Shown here: one piece after another, positions 19,991 through 44,547 of the stretch
Layout: each line of letters opens with the position of its first letter
Position numbering within the stretch: the first letter of the stretch is position 1
NCBI RefSeq assembly: GCF_001951155.1
Contig: NZ_CP016359.1
Coordinates: forward strand, 1,636,001 to 1,700,000
Direction: 5' to 3'
Origin: Christiangramia flava JLT2011
GTDB taxonomy: Bacteria; Bacteroidota; Bacteroidia; Flavobacteriales; Flavobacteriaceae
Length of the DNA: 64,000 bases
Program-made: the position numbers and the translations under genes
Notes under the pieces: generated by a model
Told to the model about the DNA's origin: nothing
Seen by the model: only the letters and a program-made list of their open reading frames with translations
Databases searched by the model: none

Positions 19991-20036
19991 GAAAATTAAT
20001 TTAAAAACCAAATCTGTCTATCCTGTGCCGTCCTGT
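19991..20036 (-). promoter_or_regulatory. shared PUL promoter motif upstream of the GH106 operon
   Basis: On the minus strand ACAGGATA (20026-20019) is preceded 10 nt upstream by ACAGGACG (20036-20029). It is followed, exactly 28 nt from core start to box start, by TAATTTTC (19998-19991), a 7/8 match to TAnnTTTG. Confidence 0.65.
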
Positions 20037-20068
20037 CGCTAAGGCTGATAAGGTTTATAATTTGAGCA

Positions 20069-20114
20069 GCAGTAAAGTACAGGATGCAGTAAGGGGAAGG
20101 GTAGATTAAGTTTG
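20069..20114 (+). promoter_or_regulatory. shared PUL promoter motif upstream of the sulfatase
   Basis: GCAGTAAAGTACAGGATG covers 20069-20086, with the core ACAGGATG at 20079. A perfect TAAGTTTG -7 box (20107-20114) begins exactly 28 nt after the core start. The sulfatase ATG is 53 nt downstream. Confidence 0.7.
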
Positions 20115-20166
20115 AGCTATATCAATTTATTGTGAATTTTATCTATTTAAAATAATAGCTGCAGGA

Positions 20167-21564
20167 ATGAAGGTGTCTTTAACAAAATCTGGTTCAGTAA
20201 TAAATCTGGCAATTTTGGCCATCTTGTTTGGATTATTAGGATGTAAAAATTCTTTGACAGATGCTGAAAATATTTCTAGCAATTCCAGGCCTAATATTAT
20301 TTTGATCATTGCGGATGATGCAGGTTGGAACGATGTGGGTTACCACGGTTCAGAAATTAAAACTCCTAATATTGACAGCCTTGCAATAAACGGGATTCAG
20401 TTAAATCATTTTTATGCATATCCAACCTGCTCTCCATCCAGAGCAAGCTTATTAACCGGGATACCGGCAAGCCGAATGGGGATCGTTGCGCCAATTAGCG
20501 GTAAAAGCGAAATTTCACTGGCAGATACCATTCACACTTTGCCAAAGGTTTTAAAAGGTGAGGGATATGTCACAGCCCTGTTAGGAAAATGGCATTTAGG
20601 TCTTAGGCCGGAAAGTGGCCCTGGAGCTTATGGTTTCGATTACTCTTATGGATTTTTACATGGGCAGATAGATCAATATGCCCATACATATAAAAATGGG
20701 GATTCCAGCTGGCACGAAAATGGGAGTTTTATAGATGAAGAGGGTCATGTGACCGATCTTTTAGGTAAGGCCGCAATGAAGTATATACAACAAAAAAGTG
20801 CAGACAGCATACCTTTCTTCTTACAATTGGCTTATAGTGCGCCACATATTCCTTTGCAGGAGCCAGAGAAGTGGAAAGAAATGTATCGCGACGTGATTTT
20901 AGACAGTTCACGATTAGACTATGCTGCCGCGATGACTCATATGGACCATTCCATAGGAGAAATTCTTAAAGTGATCGGCGAAACAGGTATAGCAGATAAT
21001 ACGATAATAATTTTCATGAGCGACAATGGTGCCCAGGAGAGCTGGTATCCAAATACACAGTATAACGGTAAATATGGACCTAATGCTACACTGGGAAGTA
21101 ACTATCCCTTTAGAGGATTTAAAATGTCTAACTATGAAGGGGGAATTAGAGTTCCGGCAATAGTCTACTGGAAAAATAAACTCTCACCCGGAACCAATAA
21201 TAATTATATATCTGTTATAGACATTATGCCATCTATTTTGAACGTTGCGGGAACAAATAAAAATGTCCCCTATGTAGAAGGCAGGAATATGTGGAATGCT
21301 ATTGCTGAAAATAAAAATACTAATGATTTTATATATGTAAGAGGACATTTGCAGGAAAGTATCATCAAAAATTCCTGGAAACTTATTAGAACTAGGTATT
21401 TAAATGATTCTTCGGAATTGGAACTTTATAATCTCGAAAAAGATCCAGAAGAAAGTGATGAAAAATTTGTAGATGAACCAGAATTAGTTAGTGAGCTTCA
21501 AAAATTGCTTCAGGACCAGTTTAAACAAGATGCGGAAGAAGTGAACGTAGGCTTGGAAAACTGA
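20167..21564 (+). CDS. family S1 sulfatase, lipoprotein
   Basis: The protein has 465 residues. The N-terminus has a lipobox (ILFGLLGCKN), so it is probably anchored in a membrane facing the periplasm. ILIIADDAGWNDVG gives the first metal-binding Asp pair. CSPSRASLLTG is the C-x-P-S-R signature whose Cys becomes formylglycine, so a maturation enzyme is needed and is not in this window. LLGKWHLG, SAPHIPLQEP and FMSDNGAQ are further S1 blocks. It would remove sulfate esters from a glycan. A sulfatase is unusual in a pectin-type locus and suggests a sulfated rhamnose-containing substrate. It is divergent from the GH106 operon, and both promoters carry the same motif. Confidence 0.92.
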   Translation: MKVSLTKSGSVINLAILAILFGLLGCKNSLTDAENISSNSRPNIILIIADDAGWNDVGYHGSEIKTPNIDSLAINGIQLNHFYAYPTCSPSRASLLTGIPASRMGIVAPISGKSEISLADTIHTLPKVLKGEGYVTALLGKWHLGLRPESGPGAYGFDYSYGFLHGQIDQYAHTYKNGDSSWHENGSFIDEEGHVTDLLGKAAMKYIQQKSADSIPFFLQLAYSAPHIPLQEPEKWKEMYRDVILDSSRLDYAAAMTHMDHSIGEILKVIGETGIADNTIIIFMSDNGAQESWYPNTQYNGKYGPNATLGSNYPFRGFKMSNYEGGIRVPAIVYWKNKLSPGTNNNYISVIDIMPSILNVAGTNKNVPYVEGRNMWNAIAENKNTNDFIYVRGHLQESIIKNSWKLIRTRYLNDSSELELYNLEKDPEESDEKFVDEPELVSELQKLLQDQFKQDAEEVNVGLEN

Positions 21565-21652
21565 GAAAGTTTAAAATAATTCATTCTAAACTAAATTTTT
21601 CTTAAAAAATTCATGTTTAAATCATCAAAAAAGTAAAAAATTTAAGATTTAT

Positions 21653-21698
21653 CCAGTACAGTACAGGATACCTTACAGGGTAGCATTAAATATATTTG
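21653..21698 (+). promoter_or_regulatory. shared PUL promoter motif upstream of susC
   Basis: CCAGTACAGTACAGGATA covers 21653-21670, with the core at 21663. TATATTTG (21691-21698), a perfect -7 box, starts exactly 28 nt after the core. A second copy of the core, ACAGGGTA at 21675-21682, lies 12 nt downstream of the first. A second possible -7 box, TAGATTTG, is at 21705-21712. Confidence 0.72.
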
Positions 21699-21726
21699 AA
21701 ACTATAGATTTGAATAATTTTTAATG

Positions 21727-21736
21727 TAATCGATTG
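21727..21736 (+). promoter_or_regulatory. TAATCGATTG element in the susC leader
   Basis: This near-palindrome resembles half-conserved LacI-family operators. The same ten bases occur at the kduI start (53731-53740). A second shared string, GAGTGATAAT, lies at 21811-21820 here and at 53691-53700 there. No LacI-type gene is in the window. Confidence 0.35.
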
Positions 21737-21848
21737 AAAAAAGGGCTTACAAGGATTCTGATCATAAAAACTCAGTGATCTTCTTCCGGAAATCGAATCC
21801 GATTAAAAATGAGTGATAATACTGGAAAGGTTAACTAAACATTAAATT

Positions 21849-24830
21849 ATGGAACAAAAAAAATTTTCTTTTCAGACAGCGGTATTTCTATTTACCATGG
21901 TCTTTTTTCTGAATAGTTATGCACAGCAAAACCCGGTAACCGGGAAGGTGACATCGTCTGATGGTATGCCAATACCCGGGGTGAATATTATTCAGAAAGG
22001 AACTTCGAATGGAGTGGTTACAGATTTTGATGGAATTTATTCTATAGTACTTGAGGAAGATGCAGATCAGGTACTGGTGTATTCATTTATAGGGTTTCAG
22101 TCTAAAGAAGAGGCGGTTAATAAAAGGTCTAACATAGACGTTACACTAAGTGATGGTGGTTCTCTTGATGAAGTAGTGGTTATTGGGTATGGTACACAAA
22201 AGCGAAGTGATGTTACCGGTGCCATTTCCTCCATTAGCGCGGAAAGTATTCAAGATGCCCCTCCAGTTGCGCCAGAACAAATTTTACAGGGTAAAGTCAC
22301 TGGGGTGAATATCGTTCAGAATAGCGGTCAGCCCGGTGCAGCTTCCACTGTAAGAATTAGAGGGATAAGTTCTATCTCTGCGGGTAATAATCCATTATAT
22401 GTTGTAGACGGGGTGCCTTTACAATTTGGTAGTGCAAATAATTCGGTTCAATTAGGATCCCAGGGAGGGACTACTGCCTTTTCTAATGAGGTGGCCAACC
22501 CTTTGAATATTATTAATCCAGCAGATATTCAAAGTATCGATGTGCTTAAGGATGCCTCTGCAACTGCCATTTATGGATCCAGAGGAGCTAATGGAGTAAT
22601 TATAATTACCACTAAAAATAAAGAAGGATTAGGTGAAACAATTACTTATGATAATTATTTTGGAATAGCAAACGTTAGGGAAACCCTGCCATTTCTCTCG
22701 GCAGCTCAATACCGGGAATATGCCGAAAGCATAAATGAACCTTATCCAGACCTTGGTGCGAATACCAATTGGCAGGAGGAAATATTCAGATCGGCATTCT
22801 CTCAAAATCATAACCTTTCTTTCTCAGGAGGTTCTAAAACCACAAAATTTCGAGCTTCATTTGGTTATACCTCACAAGAGGGGGTTATCCTTTCCAATGA
22901 ATTGAAAAAATATACCGGTAGGTTTAACGGTACACATAGAGCTCTGGATGACCGCTTAAGAATTGGAATAAACATGACCTATGCCAATTTAGAGGATGAC
23001 AAAGTAGCAATATCTTCCAGTATAAATAATGAAGGAGGTAATATTCTGAAGGATGCTTTACGCTGGGCCCCAACATTGCCTGTTTACAATGATGATGGAA
23101 GCTTCTATCAGGTTGGAGAGCTAAGAATCAATCCGGTTTCGTGGGTGGAAGTAGAAGACCTTAATCAAACCGACTATTTCATAGGAAATACTGATGTTAA
23201 ATTTGATCTTCTTGAAAGTTTGACCTTTGGTTTAAATCTAGGGTATTCCAATGAAAGAGTAGATCGCTATACTTTGGCACCAGAAACACATCCTTCTGCC
23301 GAATCTGAAGGAGGTCGTGCCTCGATAAGCAAGTTTAAAAATACCACTGCACTTATAGAAACGACTCTTAATTATGATAAGCAGATCAATGAAGATAATT
23401 ATCTCAGTATGTTGGTAGGGTATTCCTTCCAGAGATTTCAAAATGAAAATACCTTTACTCAGGCGAACCAGTTTGTTTCTACGGCTACCAAATGGAATTT
23501 AATCCAGTCTGGTAATACCCTGGCCAATACATCTTTCAAAGAAGCAAACAGGTTGGCTTCTTATTATGGTAGAATTAATTATAAGCTTAAAGACAGGTAC
23601 CTTTTAACTTTTACCCTGCGAAGAGATGGATCCAGCAGGTTTGGAGAAAATAATAGGTGGGGAACTTTTCCATCGGGAGCCTTCGCATATAATATTTCCA
23701 ATGAAGATTTTATGGAAGGCAGTGAAATTAGTAACCTGAAATTTAGACTTGGGTATGGAATTACCGGTAACCAGGAGATTCCGAATAATCTATATAGGGA
23801 GCAACTGTCTATTAGTGGTTCTAGTGTATATGTTTTTGGAGGACAGGCCGTACCCAGTGTATTGCCTACTAACTATGCAAATCCTGATTTGCAGTGGGAA
23901 GAAACAAGCCAGTTTAATATTGGGGTTGATTTTGGAATTTTTGATCAAAGACTTACAGGAACTATTGATTATTACCAGAAACAAACGGATAATCTATTAT
24001 TGAATTTTTCCACTGCTGCACCTTCTGTGGTTACCTCGCAATGGGCAAACGTAGGGGCTGTTGAAAATAAAGGTTTTGAATTTGGTATTACCGGCGATAT
24101 ATTTAGCAGTGATGACTTTAGCTGGACATCAAACCTTAACTTTTCTACCAATAAGAACGAAGTAAAAAGTCTTTCAAACGAAAACTTTCAACGCGATGAA
24201 ATAAGAACGGTAGATGGATCGGGAGTGGTTGGCTTCCAGACAGGTATTCAAATAATTCGCCCGGGCTTGCCAATTGGTTCATTTTACGGTAGAAAATTTA
24301 CAGGGCTCGATGCCGAGGGAATGGAAACTTTCCTTGACGAAGATAATGATGGGCAGGCAGATCTTCTTGTAATAGGTGATGCTAATCCTGATGTAGTATA
24401 CGGCTTTAATAATAATTTTAGATTTAAGCAATTTGATGCTGCGATCAATCTTCGAGGTGTACTGGGAAATGATATTTATAATAATACTGCTGCCGAATTT
24501 TCTTACCCGGTTTCGGCTCCGGGATTAAATGTGCTGGAATCTGCTCTTACTAATGGAACCAGCAGAGAGGAACAAGCAGAGTATTCATCTAGGTGGTTAG
24601 AAGATGGAAGTTATCTTCGGTTAGATAATATGAGTGTGGGTTATACTTTTAATACAGAGAATCTCGCATTATTAAAAAAAGCTAGAATCTATATTACCGG
24701 TAAAAATCTTTTCGTGATAACAGATTACTCTGGTTATGATCCTGAAGTGAATACCAGGGCCTTTGGAGTAGACTACCTGGCTTATCCAAGACCTACTACA
24801 TTCTTAATAGGAGGCAGTGTAACATTTTAA
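21849..24830 (+). CDS. SusC/RagA-type TonB-linked outer membrane transporter
   Basis: This 993-residue protein has a signal peptide (ending near LNSYAQQ), a carboxypeptidase-like domain (PVTGKVTSSDGMPIPGVNIIQKG split across residues ~29-50) and a TonB-box-like region. The SusC hallmark DEVVVIGYGTQKRSDVTGA follows, then a plug with IYGSRGANGVIIITTK, and a 22-strand barrel. It ends FLIGGSVTF, with the terminal Phe needed for outer membrane insertion. It would import rhamnogalacturonan oligosaccharides together with the SusD protein 18 nt downstream. Its promoter carries the shared motif. There is no extra N-terminal signalling domain, so it is not of the anti-sigma-coupled type. Confidence 0.95.
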   Translation: MEQKKFSFQTAVFLFTMVFFLNSYAQQNPVTGKVTSSDGMPIPGVNIIQKGTSNGVVTDFDGIYSIVLEEDADQVLVYSFIGFQSKEEAVNKRSNIDVTLSDGGSLDEVVVIGYGTQKRSDVTGAISSISAESIQDAPPVAPEQILQGKVTGVNIVQNSGQPGAASTVRIRGISSISAGNNPLYVVDGVPLQFGSANNSVQLGSQGGTTAFSNEVANPLNIINPADIQSIDVLKDASATAIYGSRGANGVIIITTKNKEGLGETITYDNYFGIANVRETLPFLSAAQYREYAESINEPYPDLGANTNWQEEIFRSAFSQNHNLSFSGGSKTTKFRASFGYTSQEGVILSNELKKYTGRFNGTHRALDDRLRIGINMTYANLEDDKVAISSSINNEGGNILKDALRWAPTLPVYNDDGSFYQVGELRINPVSWVEVEDLNQTDYFIGNTDVKFDLLESLTFGLNLGYSNERVDRYTLAPETHPSAESEGGRASISKFKNTTALIETTLNYDKQINEDNYLSMLVGYSFQRFQNENTFTQANQFVSTATKWNLIQSGNTLANTSFKEANRLASYYGRINYKLKDRYLLTFTLRRDGSSRFGENNRWGTFPSGAFAYNISNEDFMEGSEISNLKFRLGYGITGNQEIPNNLYREQLSISGSSVYVFGGQAVPSVLPTNYANPDLQWEETSQFNIGVDFGIFDQRLTGTIDYYQKQTDNLLLNFSTAAPSVVTSQWANVGAVENKGFEFGITGDIFSSDDFSWTSNLNFSTNKNEVKSLSNENFQRDEIRTVDGSGVVGFQTGIQIIRPGLPIGSFYGRKFTGLDAEGMETFLDEDNDGQADLLVIGDANPDVVYGFNNNFRFKQFDAAINLRGVLGNDIYNNTAAEFSYPVSAPGLNVLESALTNGTSREEQAEYSSRWLEDGSYLRLDNMSVGYTFNTENLALLKKARIYITGKNLFVITDYSGYDPEVNTRAFGVDYLAYPRPTTFLIGGSVTF

Positions 24831-24848
24831 TAAAATAAAGAAGTGATT

Positions 24849-26414
24849 ATGAAAACAATTGATATAAAATTTAGGATAAAACTAATCATGGGAGCCATGG
24901 TCATGCTCGTACTGGGTTCCTGTTCGCTGGAAGAAGAGACCTATTCAATCTATACACCTGAGACATTTTATTCTAATGATTTCCAGGTACTCTCATCACT
25001 CTCCGGTATTTACAGGAACTTCGCGGGAATCACTGGGATGGGTGTTGAATATCGTACCTTAGAGTTATCTGCAGATCAAGTGGTAGTCCAGGCCAAGATC
25101 CAGGGCTGGTGGGGAGGAGATAATTTCTGGCAATTAATGGAACATGACTGGAATCCAGACCATGCTTATATTGGGGGCACCTGGGATACTTTCTTTAGAA
25201 CCGTAGGGCAGACTAATGCTCTTTTAAACTCACTGGAGGGTTCTAATTTAGATGTAACCGGTCCAATTGGAGAATTGAGGTCTCTAAGAGCATATGCCTA
25301 TTTCTTCCTTATGGACTTATTTGGAAATGTGCCAATATTTACTGAACCTAAAGTTGACCCGCTCAATCTGCCTACACAAAATTCTCGCCTTGAAGTCTTT
25401 GAATTTGTAACCTCTGAGCTAAAAGCTGCTGCTGAAGTTCTTCCGTCAAAATCGGAAGCTGGAAGTGATTATTATGGTAGAATAACTAAGGAAGCAGCAT
25501 GGTCGTTACTGGCTACGATTTACTTGAATGCCGAAGTTTATACCGGAACCGCGATGAATGATGAAGCTGAAGAGTATGCAGATAAGGTAATTAATTCTGG
25601 AAATTATAGTCTTTTACCTAATTTCTTCGACAACTTTGTGCCAGATAACCAAAATAATGCTGAATTTATTTTTGGAGCTGTTTATTCGCCGGATGTCGCC
25701 GGTGGAATAGGGCATCCATTAGTTCAAAAAGTTCTTCCTGGTATCTCGGGTGGTTTATTTGGATTGCCTTATACCCCGCAAAATGGTTTTGCAACCCGAC
25801 CTTCTATTTATAATGCCTATACCGATGAGGATATAAGAAAGGATGTATTTATTGGTTATGGCCCTCTCATTGATCCTCGAAATGGAGAAACCGTGATGGT
25901 AGAAAGGATCGTGCCAGATAATAATTCAGCTCTTTATGTTCCCGGAGTTTCCAGTGAAGGCCCTGTGCCTTACGAAATAATCCCGGCTACCGGTATTAGA
26001 AGTCAGCCTATGAATGCAGGTTTAAAATGGATAAAATGGCAACTTGATCCTAATACCCAGGGAGGAAATGCAGGTAATGACATCGCTTTTATTCGCTACG
26101 CAGATATTCTATTAATAAAAGCAGAAGCAATGGCAAGACAGGGAGACCTTGAAGGAGCCAAGGACTATGTTAATATGGTTCGGGAACGAAGCAATGCAGA
26201 GCCTTTCACCTCTATTACCTTAGAAGATATTCTTGAGGAAAGGAATCGCGAGTTGGCTTTTGAAATGACCCGAAGAAGGGATTTAATAAGATTTGGGAAG
26301 TTTACTGACGCCTGGGAATGGAAACCTGCTTCTGAGCCTTTTAGAACCATGTATCCTATACCACAGTCAGCTCTTAATGCTAACCCGAATTTACAGCAGA
26401 ATCCCGGTTATTAA
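24849..26414 (+). CDS. SusD/RagB-type glycan-binding lipoprotein
   Basis: The start is the ATG at 24849, two codons inside a longer GTG-initiated frame. The lipobox MLVLGSCSLEEE follows a short hydrophobic segment. The body has the TPR-like helices and C-terminal blocks of SusD proteins: LRSLRAYAYFFLMDLFGNVPIF, KEAAWSLLATIYLNAEVY, FIRYADILLIKAEAMARQGD, and a near-terminal RRRDLIRFGKF with YPIPQSALNANPNLQQNPGY. It caps the SusC transporter and binds its glycan at the cell surface. A strong terminator follows, separating the susCD pair from the enzyme genes. Confidence 0.94.
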   Translation: MKTIDIKFRIKLIMGAMVMLVLGSCSLEEETYSIYTPETFYSNDFQVLSSLSGIYRNFAGITGMGVEYRTLELSADQVVVQAKIQGWWGGDNFWQLMEHDWNPDHAYIGGTWDTFFRTVGQTNALLNSLEGSNLDVTGPIGELRSLRAYAYFFLMDLFGNVPIFTEPKVDPLNLPTQNSRLEVFEFVTSELKAAAEVLPSKSEAGSDYYGRITKEAAWSLLATIYLNAEVYTGTAMNDEAEEYADKVINSGNYSLLPNFFDNFVPDNQNNAEFIFGAVYSPDVAGGIGHPLVQKVLPGISGGLFGLPYTPQNGFATRPSIYNAYTDEDIRKDVFIGYGPLIDPRNGETVMVERIVPDNNSALYVPGVSSEGPVPYEIIPATGIRSQPMNAGLKWIKWQLDPNTQGGNAGNDIAFIRYADILLIKAEAMARQGDLEGAKDYVNMVRERSNAEPFTSITLEDILEERNRELAFEMTRRRDLIRFGKFTDAWEWKPASEPFRTMYPIPQSALNANPNLQQNPGY

Positions 26415-26452
26415 TAATTGAATTAGTTTTTATATAGTTTAGTTGGATTGTG

Positions 26453-26483
26453 AAAAAGGGCCGTTTTTTAAAGGCCCTTTTTT
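26453..26483 (+). terminator. intrinsic terminator after susD
   Basis: AAAAAGGGCC (26453-26462) pairs with GGCCCTTTTT (26473-26482) around a 10-nt loop and is followed by T. It lies 18 nt before the next ATG and probably lowers expression of the enzyme genes relative to susCD. Confidence 0.8.
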
Positions 26484-26500
26484 GTTTCAAAATTATAAAT

Positions 26501-27802
26501 ATGAAAAATAAAAAATCAGTAAGTAAAAAGTATAAAACCTTCAAAGGGTTAATGCTCGTAAGTCTTGGTGTTATTGTTCTTGGATTTACCCAGTTCTCCT
26601 ATTGCCAGGTGATTGAAGGGAAGGATTATTCTTCAAGATCTGATGTTGATCACACGTTTGACATGGCTGGAGAAGATATTTTTGGACAACGTTTCCCTTC
26701 TGAAAATTTCACTTATCCCGATAAAGTGACCGGAATTAACGTTAATGCCCTTACTACATCAAGGCACAATAGCTCAAAAATGTACCAAACGCATCCTCAA
26801 TGGACTGCTGATGGTAAGTATATTATATTCTCCTCTAATCGTACTGCGCAGGAAGGAAAAGGTAGGCAATATTATGCAGTATCCATGGAAAATTATGAGA
26901 TCGTACAGATCACCACAGGAGATAGTGGAAGGAACTTCCACTTAGGATGGAATAGTGGAAAGGCTTATTTCATGAGAGATAATAACATTGTAGAACTGGA
27001 TCTCGATCGTCTTTTAAAAGACAGTGAAAAAGATGCGGTAAATGAACCTGAAAATTATGAAAAGATTCTGGCTAAAATCCCAGACAGTATTGGTCCATCA
27101 GGAATAGGCCTGGATGCTAAAGAAACCAGGGTTTTCTATTCAGCAAAAATAGATGAAAGAACTTCTGCTATCTACAGTACCGAATTTAAGTCTGGAAAAA
27201 CAGAAAAGCTAAAAGAAGTCCCTTTCCGTATAGGACATCTGCAGGCCAATCCATACGTCTCTGGAGAAGTAATGTATTGTTGGGAAACCGGAGGAGATTC
27301 TCCTCAAAGGATGTGGTATTTAACAGTTAAGGATAATGGTGACGTAAATAATCGACCAGTATTTGAAGAATCGGATACAGATTGGGTAACTCATGAAGTT
27401 TTTATGGGACCAGATCATATTTTATTCAACGTCATGGGACATCTGGACCGTTTGCAAAAAAATAAAACTGGTATTTTCTCTCTGAACCTAAGAACAAATA
27501 AACTTCAATATCACGGTCAGGCAGATGGTGGTGGATATTGGCATGTTAATGCCAGCAAGGATGGGAAATGGATCGCGGGAGATACTTTTGACGGGCGGTT
27601 GTACAGGATAAATGCTTTAGACAGTACAGACGTGAAGTTGCTCACCCAGGGGCACAGGCTGCTTAGTAAAAGTCCTTTTACCAGTGAAGCCCATATGCAT
27701 CAGTCGGTTAGCCCTGATGGGAAGTGGGTACTGTTTAATTCAAGTTATTTTACTGATAATGATATAATGCTGATGCCTTTCCGGCCCGATAATACTAAAT
27801 AA
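26501..27802 (+). CDS. PL22-type oligogalacturonate lyase, exported
   Basis: The ATG at 26501 is chosen because an earlier in-frame start would place coding sequence across the terminator. The N-terminus has a hydrophobic export signal (GLMLVSLGVIVLGFTQFSYC). The body is a beta-propeller of the Ogl family: THPQWTADGKYIIFSSNR, IGHLQANPYVSGEVMYCWETGG, WVTHEVFMGP with a metal-binding His, GYWHVNASKDGKW and MHQSVSPDGKW. Such lyases break digalacturonates by beta-elimination to 4-deoxy-5-ketouronate. This copy and the one at 35349 are only moderately alike, so they probably differ in substrate, perhaps one acting on GalA-Rha-type units. It heads a four-gene group running through PL26, DUF4861 and DUF6250. 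Confidence 0.85.
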   Translation: MKNKKSVSKKYKTFKGLMLVSLGVIVLGFTQFSYCQVIEGKDYSSRSDVDHTFDMAGEDIFGQRFPSENFTYPDKVTGINVNALTTSRHNSSKMYQTHPQWTADGKYIIFSSNRTAQEGKGRQYYAVSMENYEIVQITTGDSGRNFHLGWNSGKAYFMRDNNIVELDLDRLLKDSEKDAVNEPENYEKILAKIPDSIGPSGIGLDAKETRVFYSAKIDERTSAIYSTEFKSGKTEKLKEVPFRIGHLQANPYVSGEVMYCWETGGDSPQRMWYLTVKDNGDVNNRPVFEESDTDWVTHEVFMGPDHILFNVMGHLDRLQKNKTGIFSLNLRTNKLQYHGQADGGGYWHVNASKDGKWIAGDTFDGRLYRINALDSTDVKLLTQGHRLLSKSPFTSEAHMHQSVSPDGKWVLFNSSYFTDNDIMLMPFRPDNTK

Positions 27803-33706: not shown

Positions 33707-33752
33707 ACAGGACAGAGCGGGATACCTGGTAGAAAATCTATCTTTAAATTGA
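33707..33752 (+). promoter_or_regulatory. weak version of the shared PUL motif upstream of the second GH105
   Basis: ACAGGACA (33707-33714) is followed 10 nt on by GCGGGATA (33717-33724), the same doublet arrangement as at the GH106 promoter. TAAATTGA (33745-33752) starts exactly 28 nt after the second copy but matches TAnnTTTG at only 6 of 8 positions. Confidence 0.35.
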
Positions 33753-33782: not shown

Positions 33783-35120
33783 ATGAATTATAAGCCTACT
33801 GTTCTCTTTTGTCTCATTTGTGTATGTTTTGGTGCGCAAAGTGCTTTCGCGCAAATCAACGATGCTACCACTCCTTTGCACCTTCTTAAACCTAATTATC
33901 CTACTCCTTATGAAGCACCTGAGATAGCTGAAGTAAAGGAAGTTCTGGATAGGGTTTATACTTTTCTGGATGATTCTACACCTGCGGCGATTATAAGCAC
34001 CAAAGACAGTTCGGCGATCAAAAAAATTAAGAACCTGGATGAAAATATTGCTTTTGCTCCGGCCTCTTTCCGTCTTACCAGTTACGAGTGGGGAGTGACC
34101 TATGCGGGTATGCTTCTGGCTTCAGAAGCAACAGGGGAAGATTATTTTGAAGAATATACTAATTCCAGGCTGAAGCTCATTGCAGATCTGGCCGGTGAGC
34201 ACCGGGGAAAGTCGTATGACAAATCTCCCGTGCATTCTGTTTTACATCCTGGAGCTTTGGATGATGCAGGTGCAATTTGTGCTGCAATGATCAAAGCAGA
34301 GAAAAAAGGTTTGAATGCAGATGCACGCCCTGTGATCGAGAATTTCATAGATTATATTAGTAATGACCAGTATAGATTTCAGGATGGAACTCTAGCCAGA
34401 AACAGGCCGCAGGATAACACATTATGGCTGGATGATTTATTCATGTCAGTTCCTGCCCTGGCTCAAATGGGAGATCTTACCGGAGAAACAAAATATTTTG
34501 ATGATGCGGTAAAGCAGGTAAATCAATTTTCTGAAAGAATGTTCGATAAGGAAAATGGCTTATATATGCACGGCTGGGTAGAAGCTATGGAATACAGACC
34601 TCAGTACCACTGGGCCAGAGCAAATGGCTGGGCCGTAATGGCAATGGTAGAATTGCTGGAAGTATTACCAAAGGATCATCCAGGTTATAATGATGTTCTA
34701 GCCCAGTTGCGGGCACATATACGTGGATTGGTTAAATATCAGGACGGAACAGGCTTCTGGCACCAGTTGATCGATAGAAATGATTCTTACCTGGAAACTT
34801 CTGCTACCGCGATCTACGCATACTCTATCACACGGGCGATCAATCGGGGGTATATAGATAAGATGTCTTATGCACCGGTGGCTATCCTTGCCTGGAATGC
34901 GGTGGCGAATAAAGTCAATGGTCAGGGCCAGGTAGAAGGAACCTGCGTAGGTACTGGAATGGGCTTCGATCCCGCTTTCTACTATTATAGACCTATCAAT
35001 AAATATGCAGCTCATGGATATGGACCTGTACTACTTGCCGGAGCTGAAATGATCATGATGCTGAAGAATGATGATTTTGAGATCAATGATAGTTCTCTTC
35101 AACTTAAAGTTCAAAAATAA
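33783..35120 (+). CDS. GH105/GH88-like unsaturated glucuronyl/galacturonyl hydrolase
   Basis: The 445-residue protein has a signal peptide (ending GAQSAFAQ). The barrel shows the family blocks LWLDDLFMSVPALAQMG with the catalytic Asp, HWARANGWAVMAMVELL, and GTGFWHQLIDRNDSYLETSATA. It differs from the copy at 15974 in having a longer N-terminal region and SVLHPGALDDAGA. The two hydrolases probably take different unsaturated products, for example from PL26 and from pectate-type lyases. A weak copy of the shared motif precedes it, so it may start a separate transcript with the PL22 gene downstream. Confidence 0.88.
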   Translation: MNYKPTVLFCLICVCFGAQSAFAQINDATTPLHLLKPNYPTPYEAPEIAEVKEVLDRVYTFLDDSTPAAIISTKDSSAIKKIKNLDENIAFAPASFRLTSYEWGVTYAGMLLASEATGEDYFEEYTNSRLKLIADLAGEHRGKSYDKSPVHSVLHPGALDDAGAICAAMIKAEKKGLNADARPVIENFIDYISNDQYRFQDGTLARNRPQDNTLWLDDLFMSVPALAQMGDLTGETKYFDDAVKQVNQFSERMFDKENGLYMHGWVEAMEYRPQYHWARANGWAVMAMVELLEVLPKDHPGYNDVLAQLRAHIRGLVKYQDGTGFWHQLIDRNDSYLETSATAIYAYSITRAINRGYIDKMSYAPVAILAWNAVANKVNGQGQVEGTCVGTGMGFDPAFYYYRPINKYAAHGYGPVLLAGAEMIMMLKNDDFEINDSSLQLKVQK

Positions 35121-36737: not shown

Positions 36738-36745
36738 TATTAAAA

Positions 36746-37060: not shown

Positions 37061-37164
37061 AAAAATATCGAACACAAATTTTTCTTGCAAGATGATTTCC
37101 GGGGGTTTTACCGGAATTTCATACCCATAAGTTTTAATAATATGTAAAAAGAATAAATAGTACA

Positions 37165-38778
37165 ATGCCTAATTACCTTAAAAAATACTGTTTCTGCCTT
37201 TTATTTCTGCTTATATCGGCGATTAGTACCGCTACTGAAAGGTATAATATCAAAGATTTCGGTGCTGCCGGTGATGGGACTACGTTAGATACAGAGGCGA
37301 TTAATAAAGCTATTACAGCAGCTGCAAAAAAAGGTGGAGGAATGGTTTACTTTCCTACAGGCACATATCTTAGTTATTCCATTCGGCTTAAAAGTAATAT
37401 TCATCTCTTCCTGGAAGCTGGTTCTATTCTAAAGGCAGCAGGAAAGAATGATGGCGGAAGTTATGATGCGCCGGGTAAAGGTGCTGGGAATGAATACCAG
37501 GATTATGGGCACAGCTACTGGCGAAACAGCCTGATTTGGGGAGAGAACCTGGATAATGTTACTATCTCTGGGCCGGGAACTATCCTGGGAGAAAACTTAA
37601 GCAGGGGCTTTTATGATCATGAACAATGGGATGAGAAAGGTATTCCTGCAGGGAATCTCATGTGGCAAGGTGGAGGAAATAAGGCCATCGCCCTCAAACT
37701 TTGTACGAATGTAATTCTAAAAGATTTTACCATTATCAAGGGAGGCCATTTCGGAATTCTGGCTACAGGAGTAGATAATTTTACCATTGATAATTTAAAG
37801 ATAGATACCAACAGGGATGGGATAGACATAGACTCCTGTAAAAATGTTAGGATTTCCAATTGTACAGTGAATTCTCCAAACGATGACGCCATCTGCCTGA
37901 AAAGTTCTTTCGCCTTGGGTTATGCCAGGCCTACAGAAAATGTTACTATCACGAATTGTCAGGTTTCTGGCTATGATGTGGGTACTCTTATAGATGGTAC
38001 TTTTAAAACGGAAGAGGGACATTTGGTTCCCGATCAGGAAGGTCCTACTGGTAGGATAAAATTTGGAACAGAATCCAATGGAGGATTTAAAAATATAACT
38101 ATCAGTAACTGTGTTTTTGACCGTTCCCGTGGTCTGGCACTGGAAACTGTGGATGGCGGTTTATTGGAAGATGTTACAATAAGCAACATCACTATGCGTA
38201 ACACAACTAACTCTCCGTTCTTTTTGCGACTTGCGGGGAGAATGCGCGGACCAGAAGGTGTAGAACCGGGGGAATTGAGAAGAGTGAATATCAGTAACAT
38301 TAACGTTTATAATGCCGATTCCCATTTTTCCAGTATTGTTGGCGGAATTCCCGGTCACAATATTAAAAATGTAAGATTCAGTAATATTAATATATGGTAT
38401 AAACCTCTGGATTCAGTAAAAACACAGATTCAAAAAGTGGTTCCCGAACATATAAAAACTTATCCGGAACCGGCAAAAATGGGAATAATGCCTTCTTATG
38501 GTTTTTTCTTACGCCATGTTGAAAATGTTGAAATGCATAACATCAATATCTATCATTTAGGAGAAGAGGTTAGACCAGCTCTTATTTTTGAAGATGTACG
38601 GGATGCAGAACTTTATAACCTAGATGCGCAAAGAGCTGGAAACGCTCCAATCTTAAGATTGAAAAATTCTGAAAATATCCATTTAAAAGATTCTGAATTC
38701 CTCGAGGACCAGAAAATTTTCAGGAAAACGACCGGAGATTTTGGAGCACGGGATGCAGTTCAGAACAATTCGGAATAA
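37165..38778 (+). CDS. GH28 polygalacturonase/rhamnogalacturonase-like hydrolase
   Basis: The 537-residue protein has a signal peptide (ending AISTATE) and a right-handed beta-helix opening with YNIKDFGAAGDGTTLDTEAI. The GH28 catalytic blocks are TNRDGIDIDSC and NSPNDDAICLKSS, holding the three Asp residues, and TGRIKFGTESNGG with the RIK motif. The usual GHG motif is not obvious. It would hydrolyse galacturonosyl links, either in homogalacturonan or in the rhamnogalacturonan backbone. Its stop lies inside an inverted repeat shared with the convergent CE12 gene. Confidence 0.9.
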   Translation: MPNYLKKYCFCLLFLLISAISTATERYNIKDFGAAGDGTTLDTEAINKAITAAAKKGGGMVYFPTGTYLSYSIRLKSNIHLFLEAGSILKAAGKNDGGSYDAPGKGAGNEYQDYGHSYWRNSLIWGENLDNVTISGPGTILGENLSRGFYDHEQWDEKGIPAGNLMWQGGGNKAIALKLCTNVILKDFTIIKGGHFGILATGVDNFTIDNLKIDTNRDGIDIDSCKNVRISNCTVNSPNDDAICLKSSFALGYARPTENVTITNCQVSGYDVGTLIDGTFKTEEGHLVPDQEGPTGRIKFGTESNGGFKNITISNCVFDRSRGLALETVDGGLLEDVTISNITMRNTTNSPFFLRLAGRMRGPEGVEPGELRRVNISNINVYNADSHFSSIVGGIPGHNIKNVRFSNINIWYKPLDSVKTQIQKVVPEHIKTYPEPAKMGIMPSYGFFLRHVENVEMHNINIYHLGEEVRPALIFEDVRDAELYNLDAQRAGNAPILRLKNSENIHLKDSEFLEDQKIFRKTTGDFGARDAVQNNSE

Positions 38779-38799
38779 GCGTTTTTTATTTATTCCGAA
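38769..38799. terminator. inverted repeat between convergent GH28 and CE12 genes
   Basis: TTCGGAATAA (38769-38778) and TTATTCCGAA (38790-38799) form a perfect 10-bp stem with an 11-nt loop rich in T. The GH28 stop codon is within the stem. It is probably a bidirectional terminator, though a T-run after the stem is lacking. Confidence 0.6.
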
Positions 38800-38815
38800 C
38801 TATATAATTGGAGAT

Positions 38816-40305
38816 TTATTCTTTTGGGAAAAAGATATAATCTCGTAGTTCACTTTGTTTTAAACCGTACAGCGATTTTGCCACTATTAAGGCATTTAAT
38901 TCAGCACCTTCCATATTGGTGTGCGTATGATCCTGCGGGAAAAGATTTTTAACCTCCTGCCGGCCGATTTGCTCATATCTCCTGGCAATAGAATCGTTGA
39001 GGTCTATAAAATGCCCGCCCGCGATAGCTACAGCTTCTTTCGCCCATTTTGCATTACTTTTTCAGCATGCCAGATATTTCTCGGGATCATACTTAGAACA
39101 ATGGGCGTGGCCCCTTTAGCTTTTGTTTCAGTGATATATTTTTTCATATACCAGCCATATGTGTGCACCACCTCAGTACTATCTTTTTTAAATTCAACTG
39201 TTTGTGTTTCATCTCCCATTCCTTTTAGAGACCCGCGATATTTAGGCTGGTCCACTTCACCGCCATCGTTATGCCCGAATTGTATTAATAAAAAATCACC
39301 TTTATCCAGATCCTTCAAAACCTCATCCCAGAGACCTTCTCCTCTAAAGCTACGAATGCTTCTGCCACCGCGAGCTTTATTGTACACATTCACGCGGGTA
39401 GTATCGAAGTATTTATCCATTGGAACTCCCCAGCCCACTAAAGTATCGTTGTTATTTGCTACTGTAGAATCACCAATAAGATATACGTCTTTCTTTGTAG
39501 GGGTTTGAATTTCAGGATCTTCCAGGAGATATTTTTTCAGTGAACTACCAGATTCTTTTAAGCCTTCGATAATTAGAGATGCAGCCATCACCGCTCCTTT
39601 TGCTGAAGTGTGGGTGTGATCTCTGTCATAGAAATAAGTTCCGGTGATGTTTTGTTCGCCTTTTTCTTCCATTTGAGAAGCCATTTTTTCATTCAGATCG
39701 ATGAAGTAAGCATCTTCCTCTTCAGCCACCTGTTTTGCCCAGCCACCATAAGTAGTTGCATTCCTTGGAACTTTGCCGTTTTCCCAGTCATTTCGCGGAA
39801 TAGGCGACATGATGATTGGAATCGCCCCTTTCTCTTTGGTTTCTTTTACAAGTTTTCGAATATACCAGCCATAACTATGCACGGTCTCGTGTTTTCCCGT
39901 AAGAATATTATCTATTTCTTCGCTTTCCTCACCAGTTCCATTAATAGTCCCACGTGCCCTAAAATTATCATTTATGGGCCCGGCATCATTGTGTCCAAAC
40001 TGGATTAATACGTAATCTCCCTTTTTTAAACTATCTTTAACTGGTTCCCATAGCCCTTTGTCCTGAAAGGTTCGGCTACTGGTGCCGCCAAGTGCATGAT
40101 TTTGCACGTTAACTTTAGTGGTGTCCAGAAACTGGCCGAGGGAATCACCCCATCCCCAAAGGCCACCGGCTCCATCACCCTGGCCATTTTTTACGGTGGA
40201 ATCGCCAACCATATAAACTGTAGGTTTTTCTCCTGAATCACTTTCCTCGCAGCTGATCATAAAAAGCGAGAATGTTAGTACGATCAAATAATTGAATGTT
40301 TTCAT
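38816..40305 (-). CDS. two-domain CE12 rhamnogalacturonan acetylesterase, frameshifted near the 3' end
   Basis: A lipobox (FSLFMISCEESD) is followed by two SGNH-hydrolase repeats. Domain 1 has VYMVGDSTVKNG (nucleophile Ser), IQFGHNDAGP and YDRDHTHTSAKG (Asp/His), all intact. Domain 2 has VYLIGDSTVANN and IQFGHNDGGE, but its reading frame shifts in the A-run near 39058 and hits TAG at 39028. In the alternative frame the protein continues with WAKEAVAIAGGHFIDLND and QDHTHTNMEGAELNAL to a TAA at 38818-38816. The frameshift thus cuts off the second Asp/His pair. The enzyme would remove acetyl groups from galacturonate in rhamnogalacturonan. Domain 1 should still work; a sequencing error is possible. 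Confidence 0.85.
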
Positions 40306-40314
40306 TTGAAATAT

Positions 40315-43185
40315 TTAATTACTCTGAAAATTTCTAAAATCGAACCATAGGTTCATGGTAATACCGTCATCTCCTTTTTTAATCCTGATATTGGTAGGCT
40401 GGCTGCTGGGCCCCTGGTGTGAAAGAGGTTTGAAAGCTCTCATCGCGGGGATCTCGTACATAAAAGAAATGTTACCTTCTGGAAATTCAGGTTGCGCATG
40501 TGCTCCGGGGAATGCATTTTTTGGTTCTGCAGGAGTGAAAAGTCTTAAAAACAGTTTATCAGATTCACTGAAGATCCTGAAGCTGTTTTCTCCAGCAAGA
40601 ATTTTAGCCGCTAGAAGATTGGCGTGGTAGCCTTTAAATTCAGGATAGATAAGGTTTTCAAAACTTTCACCCGTAATGGTATTGTTATAATCTTTTTCCC
40701 AAATATTATATTCGGTCCCCTGCAGCCTGTTCTTCCAGACATGATATGGACCTTTTCCAAACCATTTGATACCTTCTACCTCCTCTTCCGGAAAATCAAA
40801 AGTGATCCCGAACTTATTGATTTCACCTTCATAAAAGGCACCGTCAAAACCACTACTTGTGCCGGCATTTTTTAAGGCGGTCATTTCCATTTTTAACCTT
40901 CCATCGGGAAACATGGTCCATTTTATCGTATGGATCCCACCGGCATAGCTTACCAAAGCAATGGCATTACCGTCCTTATTTTTTATTTCAACTTTCTCCA
41001 CTGCGGCTTTCATGCCAACAGGACGCGGACCATTTAGAAATGCGATCTCATTTACAGTGTTTTCAATATGAATGATTTCGCCATTTTCAGCATCCAGGAT
41101 CACTGTTATTTCGCCGCCGGAAAGTTTGATCTCGTTTTTATTCTTTTCTACCGTCGCTTCAGTTGCCGATTCTTTTTTCTGAAGAAATTTTTCGGCAAAA
41201 AATGCCGCTTTATGAATAGGCCAGGTCCAGGTATAGATCTCCCGGCCATGCTTGTCTGTTCCGGTAATTTCGATCCAGTCTCCGCTGAAGAATTCGTCTT
41301 TTACCGGAATGTTGATTTTTCGTGTTTCACCGGGCTCAATACTAGGAACATCAATTTTTCCAGAATAGATAATGGCTACATCATCCTGCTCATAAAAAGA
41401 ATTTATTCCGGCCTTTTTTACTTTGTATTCCATGAGGATCTCCTCTAAATTGGTGAAGAGATATGTATTAGTAATAAGGAAACTACAGTCAAAGCTTTTA
41501 TTGATTTCTTTTGGTTGAAACTGAACCGGGGCCCAAACCTCTTTTATGGTATAGAAGCTGCCTTCTTTTTCACGGTGTGGTCCCAATATTCCATCGGGTG
41601 CGAGAGAGCCTTTAGAATCATAGATTTGATCGCCATCCCAATCTGTGCGTCTAACTGCCTCATCATTAAAAACCCAAAGAAATCCACCGGCAAACAACGG
41701 GCTTTTAGTATAACGTTCCCAAAAATCGGCAAGTCCGGCACCATGGCCATTGTCATAAGTACCATGCATGAATTCGGTAGGAAAGAAAACATTCTCACCA
41801 TTGCCAAACCTATGTACTCCGGTAAGATAAGTAGGGTAGTGGTGTGTGTCCCAACCGTTAAAGTCAGCCCAGGGATGAATAACGATTCGGTTTTGAGGAT
41901 CATATTCAGAAAAAACGGTATCCAGTTCTTCGTTCCAGCCACCTTCATTTCCCTGGTCCCAGATAATAACCGATGGATGATTCACATCTCGCTGTACCAT
42001 TTCTTTGATCAGTTTTTTACCGGTTGAGGTGTCATAAGGATTTTGCCAGCCGGCTAGTTCATCTAAAACAAATAATCCCAGGGAATCACAGGCTTGCAGG
42101 AAGTGATTGTCTGGAGGATAATGAAAACGTACTGCATTCATATTCATATCCTTAATAAGATTTACATCCATGATGCTTATGCGTTTACTGGTGCTTCGGC
42201 CAGATTCCGGCCAGATGGTGTGGCGGTTAACCCCCTTCATGATAATTTTTTTACCATTTACATATATGCCATCTTTCTTTCTAAAATCAATACTTCGAAA
42301 GCCAATACGTTCGGTTACTTCATGGAGTACTTTATTCCCCTTTATCAAACTTAATTTAAGATCATAAAGATTTGGATCTTCAGGGTTCCATGGTTTTATA
42401 TTCTCCCATTTTGATTCAAGAATAGTTTCTTCAGATGCTTCGACTACAGGAAAGCTGAAAGATTTATAGGATGCATCATTTCCAATTGGTTGAAGACTAA
42501 CTTTTAGTTCGGTATTCTTCGGAATATTCTTCAGCAGTAGATTGGCTTTTAAAGAACCATCCATTTCCGGAGCTACCGCAACATGACTTATATGAGTTTC
42601 TGGAGTGATCTCCAGCCAAACGGGACGGTAAATTCCTCCAAAAAGCCACCAGTCTGCTTTACGTTCCGCATTATTTACGGTAGGATTGGCAGAATGTTTC
42701 CAAACATGTACTTCTAAAAGATTTTCTGAATCATATTTAATAAGATTGGTGATATCGTACTGAAATTCATAAAATCCCCCCTGGTGTATTTCTCCAGCAA
42801 GTTGACCATTCACTTTTACTTCAGTATCTGTCATTACCCCGCCAAATTTGATGATCACGCGTTGGCCATCATATACTTTTGGAGCTTGGAATTCATATTT
42901 ATAAAATCCTTCTTCTTTGCTGGGTTCTTCCTGTTCCAATTCCTTATACCAGCGGCCGTAGGTATACGTCCCAAAACCCTTTATTTCCCAGTTTGAAGGC
43001 ACTTCTATTTTACTCCATTTTCCGCTGTTCTGGCCATCGGTAACCTTGAAGTCCCATATTATAGTGTCGGTTTCAGAATCTTTACCAGAGAGATATATTT
43101 TTTTACTTTCCTGAGCATAGATTTGAGAGCCCAGAAAACATAAACATATTATTTGAAGAAGATATTTCGAGTGGTTCGCAGCCAT
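40315..43185 (-). CDS. GH2 beta-galactosidase-like glycosidase
   Basis: The 956-residue protein has a signal peptide (ending GSQIYAQ). It has a sugar-binding domain (WEIKGFGTYTYGRWYKE), an Ig-like domain, a TIM barrel with KGVNRHTIWPESGRST, the acid/base Glu in IIWDQGNEGGWN and the likely nucleophile in FFPTEFMHG, and a C-terminal beta-sandwich of the LacZ small-chain type. It would remove beta-linked galactose from rhamnogalacturonan-I side chains; beta-glucuronidase activity cannot be ruled out. It is the first gene of a leftward pair with CE12 (9 nt apart), and its promoter carries the shared motif. Confidence 0.87.
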   Translation of the reverse strand: MAANHSKYLLQIICLCFLGSQIYAQESKKIYLSGKDSETDTIIWDFKVTDGQNSGKWSKIEVPSNWEIKGFGTYTYGRWYKELEQEEPSKEEGFYKYEFQAPKVYDGQRVIIKFGGVMTDTEVKVNGQLAGEIHQGGFYEFQYDITNLIKYDSENLLEVHVWKHSANPTVNNAERKADWWLFGGIYRPVWLEITPETHISHVAVAPEMDGSLKANLLLKNIPKNTELKVSLQPIGNDASYKSFSFPVVEASEETILESKWENIKPWNPEDPNLYDLKLSLIKGNKVLHEVTERIGFRSIDFRKKDGIYVNGKKIIMKGVNRHTIWPESGRSTSKRISIMDVNLIKDMNMNAVRFHYPPDNHFLQACDSLGLFVLDELAGWQNPYDTSTGKKLIKEMVQRDVNHPSVIIWDQGNEGGWNEELDTVFSEYDPQNRIVIHPWADFNGWDTHHYPTYLTGVHRFGNGENVFFPTEFMHGTYDNGHGAGLADFWERYTKSPLFAGGFLWVFNDEAVRRTDWDGDQIYDSKGSLAPDGILGPHREKEGSFYTIKEVWAPVQFQPKEINKSFDCSFLITNTYLFTNLEEILMEYKVKKAGINSFYEQDDVAIIYSGKIDVPSIEPGETRKINIPVKDEFFSGDWIEITGTDKHGREIYTWTWPIHKAAFFAEKFLQKKESATEATVEKNKNEIKLSGGEITVILDAENGEIIHIENTVNEIAFLNGPRPVGMKAAVEKVEIKNKDGNAIALVSYAGGIHTIKWTMFPDGRLKMEMTALKNAGTSSGFDGAFYEGEINKFGITFDFPEEEVEGIKWFGKGPYHVWKNRLQGTEYNIWEKDYNNTITGESFENLIYPEFKGYHANLLAAKILAGENSFRIFSESDKLFLRLFTPAEPKNAFPGAHAQPEFPEGNISFMYEIPAMRAFKPLSHQGPSSQPTNIRIKKGDDGITMNLWFDFRNFQSN

Positions 43186-43319
43186 AGTATTAATGGTGAT
43201 TTAAATGGCGTACTTTTTCAGAATAAGGTTTGGTAGCTCCAAAATCTTTCAGGCTAAACGAACTATCTTTAGATATCGGAGGCGCCGGGATCTATAAGTA
43301 CTAAGAGTTAATTTAGTAA

Positions 43320-43365
43320 CTAAACTAGTAAAGCTTTATAGTAAGTGTATCCTGTACTGTTATGA
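43320..43365 (-). promoter_or_regulatory. shared PUL promoter motif upstream of the GH2-CE12 operon
   Basis: On the minus strand AACAGTACAGGATACAC ends the motif, with ACAGGATA at 43355-43348. TAGTTTAG (43327-43320), 7/8 to TAnnTTTG, begins exactly 28 nt after the core start. Confidence 0.65.
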
Positions 43366-43374
43366 GTTCACTTT

Positions 43375-44418
43375 TTAAACTGAATTTCGTTCAATATAAT
43401 TGAAGACATTTTTTACATTTTCCTTTTTATTTTTCAGGATCATATAGGCAGCAGATTCCCCCATAGTTTTAAAATCTGTACTAATTACCGAAATTCCCAG
43501 GAGTTCTTTTAATGGAGTTTCATTGTAAGATATAATACCAATGTCTTTGCCCAGAATCAGCTTCTTTTTCCTGGTTTGGCGAACCAAGTTCACGAGATCT
43601 CTTTCCTGTATGGTGACATACACATCTTTGCTTTGTAACTCCATATCGTCATAGATTTCATGCAGGATCTCATAATCGAAATTGTTTTCTACACAAAATT
43701 TTATGAAGCCGGTGCGTATTCTACGGGGATATGGATTGGCAGATTTCTCTGGATACACTAAGATCACTTTGTCGTATTTTTTGATCTTTTCCAATCCTTC
43801 GGTAAGTGCATTGAAAATGTCCTGTTTAAAATCCTGGTATATGGAGCTAAATTCAGTATTCAACATATCCTTCACGTTATCCAGCATGATGAGACTATCT
43901 GTAGGGATTTTTTTTAAAGTATCCAGAACTGAAGGTGTGAAAGTTACGTGATGAGAGTTTTCATCTCTAAAATGAGGCATGATTACGTAATAATCATAGG
44001 CACCCATGTTTCTTTCCATGGTTTTTAGAAACAAAGATTCATCACAATGATAAATAAACATGTCTACATGAGCATTCACTCCTAGGGCATCTACAAAAGA
44101 ATTATAGATGATCATTTTATAAACACTCGGTTTATTCACCATGAATAAAATGTTCACCCTGGAAATTAGGTCGGTTTTAGAGGTATAAAATCCTTTTCCT
44201 TTTACCGAGACGATGACCTTTTTCTCTTTTAATAGCCGATAAGCTTTTTCCACCGTATCTCTGGAAAGAAGTAAATGTTCACTAAGTTCATTAATAGAGG
44301 GTATTTTCTCTCCTACCTTAATATTTCCATGAGAGATATCGGAAATTATAGAATCTACGATTTGCTTATATTTTGGAATTCTGGAATCTTCGTTGATTTT
44401 GATATCTAATGGGAACAT
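43375..44418 (-). CDS. GntR family regulator with periplasmic-binding-protein-like sensor domain
   Basis: The 347-residue protein has an N-terminal GntR winged helix (RIPKYKQIVDSIISDISHG, IPSINELSEHLLLSRDTVEKAYRLL). A LacI/PBP1-like ligand-binding domain follows at about residues 90-340 (VILVYPEKSANPYPRRIRTGFIKFC, IGIISYNETPLKELLGISVIS). This architecture is used by Bacteroidota for sugar-responsive control. It faces rhaEW across a 157-nt gap and follows the GH2 operon, so L-rhamnose or a rhamnose intermediate is the likely ligand. It is the only regulator encoded within the locus and the first candidate for binding the shared motif. Confidence 0.87.
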   Translation of the reverse strand: MFPLDIKINEDSRIPKYKQIVDSIISDISHGNIKVGEKIPSINELSEHLLLSRDTVEKAYRLLKEKKVIVSVKGKGFYTSKTDLISRVNILFMVNKPSVYKMIIYNSFVDALGVNAHVDMFIYHCDESLFLKTMERNMGAYDYYVIMPHFRDENSHHVTFTPSVLDTLKKIPTDSLIMLDNVKDMLNTEFSSIYQDFKQDIFNALTEGLEKIKKYDKVILVYPEKSANPYPRRIRTGFIKFCVENNFDYEILHEIYDDMELQSKDVYVTIQERDLVNLVRQTRKKKLILGKDIGIISYNETPLKELLGISVISTDFKTMGESAAYMILKNKKENVKNVFNYIERNSV

Positions 44419-44501
44419 ACTCTTGATCGATAATTGCTAAAAGTTTATAAAATTAATTAATTATTTCAGGGATTAAGTCTTAATATCAAAACTTTCCCTG
44501 A

Positions 44502-44547
44502 ACAGTACACTACAGGATAGCCTCTATATCAATTAAACCTAAATTTG
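44502..44547 (+). promoter_or_regulatory. shared PUL promoter motif upstream of rhaEW
   Basis: ACAGTACACTACAGGATA covers 44502-44519, with the core at 44512. A perfect TAAATTTG -7 box (44540-44547) begins exactly 28 nt after the core start. The rhaEW ATG is 28 nt further on. Confidence 0.72.

Follow-up and report, generated by a model that had tools for sequence, protein, structure and literature searches.

The 64,000-nt stretch of Christiangramia flava JLT2011 presented above (NZ_CP016359.1, positions 1,636,001 to 1,700,000; hereafter the window) contains a rhamnogalacturonan-type locus in which five promoters share one motif at a fixed distance from the -7 box. This motif is probably the operator of a rhamnose-polymer regulon, read by the GntR-type protein encoded at 43375-44418, which would act as an activator. 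An earlier note on this DNA had placed five cores ACAGGATA/G at 20026-20019 (-), 20079 (+), 21663 (+), 43355-43348 (-), and 44512 (+), each with a box starting exactly 28 nt after the core start, and a check of the sequence confirmed both the cores and the distance at all five sites. Among the boxes (TAATTTTC, TAAGTTTG, TATATTTG, TAGTTTAG, and TAAATTTG) TAnnTTTG is exact in three and has one departure in two. The putative operator-promoter units are the following, with ranks taken from the matrix described below and G590 being Christiangramia crocea (locus L004):

19991..20035, minus strand: GH106-GH88 unit; site CAGGACGGCACAGGATAG, 19-nt spacer, box TAATTTTC at 19998-19991; matrix rank 4, 2 mismatches to the long pattern, kept in G590
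20070..20114, plus strand: sulfatase-gene unit; site CAGTAAAGTACAGGATGC, spacer, box TAAGTTTG; matrix rank 3, also in G590
21654..21698, plus strand: SusC/SusD unit; site CAGTACAGTACAGGATAC, spacer, box TATATTTG; matrix rank 2, also in G590
43320..43364, minus strand: unit upstream of the GH2 and GDSL esterase genes; site CATAACAGTACAGGATAC, spacer, box TAGTTTAG; matrix rank 5, also in G590
44503..44547, plus strand: rhaEW-operon unit; site CAGTACACTACAGGATAG, spacer, box TAAATTTG; matrix rank 1

Specificity of the motif

The matrix was trained on 28 rhaEW promoters from 27 other genomes (two promoters come from one strain), with the window excluded. According to it, the five sites occupy ranks 1-5 in the window with scores of 38.1, 36.1, 30.8, 23.0, and 18.4, followed by 7.5 for the next candidate. 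The highest score in 40 simulated windows is 14.0, and the average maximum is 4.3. As for the bare core ACAGGATR, it is modestly enriched in the window (10 observed vs 3.3 expected), the other five cores having matrix scores of -8 to -34.

The genome was scanned as a single contig of 4,007,868 bases, with the reversed pattern as a control. Exact core and box (spacer 19-21) give 3 matches, all within this locus, and 0 in the control. With at most one mismatch there are 6 matches, 5 of which are these sites; the sixth, at 2233251, was taken as chance, being oriented back into the end of the upstream gene. Exactly two mismatches add 84 matches, compared with 38 in the reversed control at up to two, and at this tolerance the short pattern is mostly noise. 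The long pattern with up to three mismatches matches 7 times, again including these 5 sites, and the reversed control 0 times; the remaining two matches, both with three mismatches, lie at 816617 and 1785891.

All five sites are present in G590, where 87/90 site positions and 38/40 box positions are identical to the window, but only 40/95 spacer positions. Among related rhaEW loci with a readable upstream region, the site is found in 59/59, 31 of these being outside the training set. Sites also occur at the position equivalent to the GH2/GDSL unit in many relatives, and in locus L010 the site stands before a GDSL-type gene. Unrelated promoters do not carry the motif as often, either in this genome or in the 299 family genomes scanned, which supports the earlier proposal that glycan import, depolymerisation, and rhamnose catabolism belong to a single regulon. 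That proposal is correct in substance, and its object is larger than first noted: a putative family-wide operator with a strong candidate regulator.

Weaker versions of the motif had also been claimed at 33717 and 35147. The second was rejected, its box being one base out of register (27 nt vs 28). The first stands in part:

33708..33752, plus strand: possible weak sixth site before GH88; site CAGGACAGAGCGGGATAC, spacer, box-like TAAATTGA

Its matrix score of 6.0 is within chance by the simulated maxima given above. A similar sequence precedes the orthologous GH88 gene in two relatives (G593 and G590), and this conservation lends the site some support; no counterpart was seen in a third, G592.

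Geometry of the proposed operator

Judged from its sequence, the operator is a direct repeat with a 10-bp period, CAGNAYAS-YR-CAGGATRS, followed by 19 nt and then TAnnTTTG. For this analysis 146 sites were used out of 150 among the matches listed in 31 genomes, with three window sites and the site of genome G277 left out. The search pattern leaves position 18 open, yet 132/146 sites have C or G there, in register with the S of position 8; the halves accordingly appear as CAGNAYAS and CAGGATRS with a period of 10. The spacer is thus 19 nt when position 18 is counted as part of the site, and 20 nt from the end of the scored 18-mer.

Regarding the distance to the box, a matrix of the site part without the box was applied to 85 loci and gave 127 hits, of which 27 are training promoters. 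Strict TAnnTTTG lies exactly 20 nt downstream of the 18-mer end (R) in 63/127 hits, 38 of them outside the training set, elsewhere within 40 nt downstream in 2, and in the opposite direction in 2. A box-like sequence at 20 nt is present in 114/127 hits; the other thirteen have none, and several of them are chance-like.

Promoters of Bacteroidetes sigma-A carry a -33 TTTG element. At the sites described here the -7 box TAnnTTTG is present, and the -33 TTTG is replaced by GGATRS of the operator. With the box placed as in Flavobacterium psychrophilum, where it was mapped to -12 to -5 (passages of PMC9723704), the operator would span about -49 to -32. A fixed site overlapping the upstream promoter element with constant phase and polarity, as found here, is the arrangement of class II activator sites.

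A side observation concerns rhaEW promoters of Weeksellaceae (L045-L080), in which the flanks of the operator often form an inverted repeat. Its outer bases seem to co-vary, as in CAGCA...TGCTG, TAGCA...TGCTA, and CGGCA...TGCCG.

The GntR protein

The candidate regulator is encoded beside the rhaEW operon:

43375..44418, minus strand: protein with a GntR-type winged helix and a LacI/periplasmic-binding-protein-type effector domain; proposed operator reader according to Pfam, structure model, fold search, co-occurrence, and helix covariation

The N-terminal winged helix (PF00392, E 1.7e-13, residues 16-78) places it in the GntR superfamily. The Pfam match to the effector domain PF13377 is weak and below the cut-off (22.0 vs 26.5). 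The structure model has a mean predicted local distance difference test value of 89.6; its fold-search hits include LacI-type regulators and, for AraR, the effector domain 3tb6, and the sequence hits include the arabinose repressor DNA-binding domain 4egy. The protein therefore has, according to the fold search, the LacI/periplasmic-binding-protein-type effector domain of the AraR-like GntR subfamily. The palindromic operator of that subfamily is not seen, the proposed operator being a direct repeat. According to Pfam, the protein contains neither the AraC helix-turn-helix pair, nor the DeoR DNA-binding domain, nor the aminotransferase-like pyridoxal phosphate domain of MocR regulators; NCBIfam MocR matches cover the DNA-binding domain only.

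Co-occurrence was assessed in 299 Flavobacteriaceae genomes, with up to two mismatches for the motif and E up to 1e-80 for GntR. The motif is present in 62/299 genomes (none for the reversed control), GntR in 62/299, and rhaEW in 70/299; motif and GntR are found together in 59. Among rhaEW genomes, the motif occurs in 58/61 with GntR and in 0/9 without GntR at E 1e-80. G256, G020, and G064, whose GntR proteins are 59, 43, and 44% identical, have degenerate versions of the motif at the right phase.

A wider scan took in 295 genomes of the class, of which 286 do not belong to Flavobacteriaceae. The motif was detected in 9/295 (reversed control 2/295): in the present genome, in one other family member (G127), and in seven genomes from outside the family. 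Among the latter, G319, G333, and G329 have a GntR with 63, 49, and 48% identity, respectively, and G502 a 40% one, while G318, G312, and G403, which have single sites with two mismatches, contain no GntR at E 1e-40. In a chosen subset of genomes 64 sites were typed, three of them on contigs without GntR; the median distance from site to GntR is 23 kb, with 39/61 sites within 50 kb, and regulon targets are therefore not all neighbours of the GntR gene.

Operator and recognition helix also change together. Four genomes (G108, G222, G247, and G037) encode a divergent GntR (41-46% identical) below the 1e-80 cut-off, and their operator variant has CAGAA(C/T)R in place of CAGGATR. Their left half-sites are changed too (e.g., CAGAACGGTACAGAACG in G222) and all have A at position 4, which is found in 6/146 usual sites. 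The helix of the variant proteins reads SRDT(I/V)V(R/K)AY, compared with the usual SRDT(V/I)EKAY. G020, G064, G329, and G333, with 43-49% overall identity, retain both the usual helix and CAGGA. Because the motif and GntR co-occur and the operator change follows the helix change, this GntR is the likely binder of the direct-repeat operator.

In one genome, G272, an AraC-family gene stands beside rhaEW and no motif is seen (comparison of L117 and L119). The region upstream of rhaEW is nearly identical in G298, where a 299-aa open frame occupies the place of the AraC gene, an apparent regulator swap.

Predicted targets in the window and in other genomes

The sites in the window are surrounded by genes for GH88, GH106, sulfatase, SusC/D, PL22-like, rhamnogalacturonan-lyase-like (PcRGLX), DUF4861, DUF6250, and GH28 proteins, as well as GDSL, GH2, GntR, and the rhaEW, isomerase, kinase, and lactate dehydrogenase genes. 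The predicted targets are:

17120..19870, minus strand: GH106 alpha-L-rhamnosidase, predicted regulon target
20167..21564, plus strand: sulfatase, predicted regulon target
21849..26414, plus strand: SusC and SusD genes, predicted regulon target
33783..35120, plus strand: GH88 unsaturated glycuronyl hydrolase, possible target of the weak site
39028..43185, minus strand: GH2 glycosidase and GDSL esterase, predicted regulon target
44576..50565, plus strand: rhaEW, rhamnose isomerase, FGGY kinase, and L-lactate dehydrogenase-like FMN enzyme, predicted regulon target

Two observations on these genes are added. The sulfatase at 20167-21564 shares the operator with rhamnogalacturonan genes, which hints at a sulfated rhamnose-containing substrate. 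The 472-aa protein encoded after the rha genes (50583-52001) belongs to no Pfam family, with a weak NCS1 transporter match far below the cut-off; it is 68-91% identical in relatives and may be a rhamnose transporter.

Growth on L-rhamnose and a rhamnogalacturonan cluster resembling a polysaccharide utilisation locus (PUL) are described for Gramella flava JLT2011 in passages of PMC5306329, and this cluster is very probably the present locus. The passages name neither an operator nor a regulator for it, and the word GntR occurs 0 times in the main text.

To characterise targets elsewhere, 20 sites were sampled, one per genome, none beside rhaEW and all with at most one mismatch; 16 are the first such site listed, and four (G163, G172, G227, and G245) a later one. 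In 20/20 cases an open frame begins within 195 nt after the box, with the earliest start codon already overlapping the unit in three, and 20/20 downstream genes are carbohydrate genes according to Pfam. They comprise nine SusC-type TonB receptors, three sulfatases (one fused to GH78), one further GH78, two GH3, an ulvan lyase (G163), GH88, GH43, an FGGY kinase, and a ThuA protein.

Another 20 proteins, picked non-randomly, come from selected clusters and from variant sites. They include a PL28 ulvan lyase (G246), GH106, GH78, SusC, sulfatases, a sulfatase-GH78 fusion, RGL11, GH5, and a BNR-repeat protein, along with GDSL, lactate dehydrogenase-like, extracytoplasmic function (ECF) sigma factor, another GntR, glucose/sorbosone dehydrogenase-like, and short-chain dehydrogenase proteins; one has a secretion tail only, and two have no Pfam family.

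Three of the clusters deserve separate mention. In G212 a strong operator precedes the ECF sigma factor gene (L127:16361-16930, minus strand), and the regulon may include a second control tier. In G163 an LdhH-like CCG lactate dehydrogenase protein (L129:10071-10823, plus strand) lies behind an operator-like site and matches the lactate dehydrogenase among the rha genes of the window. In G246 an operator-like site (L124:5182, minus strand) stands before the PL28 ulvan lyase, and the nearest GntR proteins are distant, with 34-38% identity.

Proposed mechanism and alternatives

We propose that the GntR protein, as a dimer, would bind the two half-sites, which are arranged head to tail with an offset of one helical turn. 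Located at about -49 to -32, the operator would stand in for the -33 promoter element, with a constant phase relative to the -7 box. The effector domain may bind L-rhamnose or a breakdown intermediate, and the effector-bound protein would help sigma-A RNA polymerase to start the genes for the SusC/D importer, GH106, sulfatase, GH2, and esterase, as well as the rhaEW operon. What the sequence shows is the sites with their fixed phase and polarity, the direct repeat, its conservation, its co-occurrence with the GntR gene, and its covariation with the recognition helix. Direct binding, a dimer, the nature of the ligand, and control by activation instead of repression are inferred from it; activation is suggested by the constant phase, the constant polarity, and the replacement of the -33 element. 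We lean, with some reserve, toward the fuller statement that a GntR/periplasmic-binding-protein-type sensor works as a class II activator on a head-to-tail repeat replacing the -33 element, and that one monosaccharide signal jointly switches on ulvan, rhamnogalacturonan, and rhamnose genes in Flavobacteriaceae.

Several points weigh against this view. Transcripts of the rhamnogalacturonan PUL-like cluster of Gramella flava were unchanged on pectin (passages of PMC5306329). The helix covariation comes from four genomes, and p-values for the co-occurrence are not strict, as the genomes share ancestry. G246 and G219 carry a motif-like site and only a distant GntR with the helix SRDTVLMAF; in G277 the single site is poor and no GntR was matched. 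Three genomes have rhaEW without the motif (G024, G249, and G291), of which G024 has distant GntR proteins only and the other two none at E 1e-40. Precedent points the same way: AraR of Bacillus subtilis represses and has palindromic operators, and a GntR family repressor of alginate catabolism has reportedly been found in Zobellia galactanivorans.

These precedents bear most directly on the possibility that the same GntR and operator form a repressor system, in which the protein covers the -33 region and is released by rhamnose or an intermediate. A position of -49 to -32 could block polymerase, many sugar GntR regulators besides AraR repress, and the Zobellia protein is called a repressor in the title of its paper. 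A repressor, however, needs no single phase or polarity, yet 63/65 strict downstream boxes within 40 nt sit at 20 nt, and the operator takes the place of the -33 element. Repression thus appears unlikely.

Another activator, of the AraC, DeoR, or hybrid two-component type and encoded elsewhere, might own the direct repeat, with GntR as a passenger. Operators of DeoR-type RhaR are indeed 10-11 bp direct repeats, and those of the AraC type 21-bp repeats (passages of PMC3870299). The motif nevertheless tracks GntR among rhaEW genomes, G333 and G329 carry both outside the family, operator changes accompany changes of the GntR helix, and G272, with its AraC gene beside rhaEW, has neither the motif nor a GntR match. 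By these comparisons, in which the GntR was the one regulator whose distribution was set against that of the motif, we consider such an activator improbable.

As for the mode of binding, the earlier note had offered a direct repeat for an activator or an 11-bp pseudo-palindrome, GTA-N5-TAC or CTA-N5-TAG, for the GntR protein. The direct-repeat geometry holds, as does the local GntR as its likely binder, while the pseudo-palindrome, visible in the window at the SusC, GH2, and rhaEW sites, is very improbable: over the 146 sites, positions 8 and 18 lack G/C complementarity (59 complementary, 70 not, 17 other; Fisher p = 0.51), and positions 9 and 17 show no positive association (p = 0.15). A SusC promoter element of general use, with no relation to rhamnose, has similarly little chance. 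SusC-type genes do follow 9/20 sampled non-rhaEW sites, but the motif is absent at up to two mismatches from 237/299 family genomes, in which SusC genes are common, and it also precedes rhamnosidase, lyase, sulfatase, and rha genes.

Both ulvan and rhamnogalacturonan are polysaccharides rich in rhamnose, and both are abundant. With the operator defined by sequence, the regulon can be predicted in any genome, and one can test directly whether activation by a GntR sugar sensor is possible through replacement of the -33 element. Natural variants of operator and helix are ready-made material for specificity swaps in laboratory strains.

Comparison with known systems

AraR of Bacillus subtilis has the same domain plan as the present protein, a GntR winged helix with a LacI-type effector domain. 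It represses and uses palindromic operators, unlike the 10-bp direct repeat proposed here, whose phase over -33 is constant. The alginate regulator of Zobellia galactanivorans, compared by title only, likewise comes from a marine flavobacterium, belongs to the GntR family, and controls a polysaccharide locus; it differs in its glycan and, by title, in being a repressor.

MocR regulators share the GntR winged helix, whereas their aminotransferase-like domain is not found in this protein; according to passages of PMC5320631, the MocR proteins GabR and TauR activate, and many MocR operators are direct repeats spaced by one or several turns of the helix. RhaR regulators of the AraC, DeoR, and LacI types likewise control rha genes, sometimes together with polymer-use genes (passages of PMC3870299). 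Operators of the DeoR type are also direct repeats of 10-11 bp (same passages). The RhaR proteins are non-homologous to this GntR; the word GntR occurs 0 times in PMC3870299.

In openly accessible literature, as covered by titles and passages, neither this operator nor a GntR regulator of rhamnose use in flavobacteria is named; for the GntR regulator this includes the passages of PMC3878776, PMC9296495, PMC5507952, PMC7953866, and PMC12323373. The first of these describes the Bacteroides regulators RhaR (AraC, BT3768) and FucR (GntR, BT1272), each with one target operon. They too govern sugar regulons of Bacteroidetes, and FucR also belongs to the GntR family (passages of PMC3878776). Unlike these single operons, the regulon proposed here adds the genes for polymer import and cutting.

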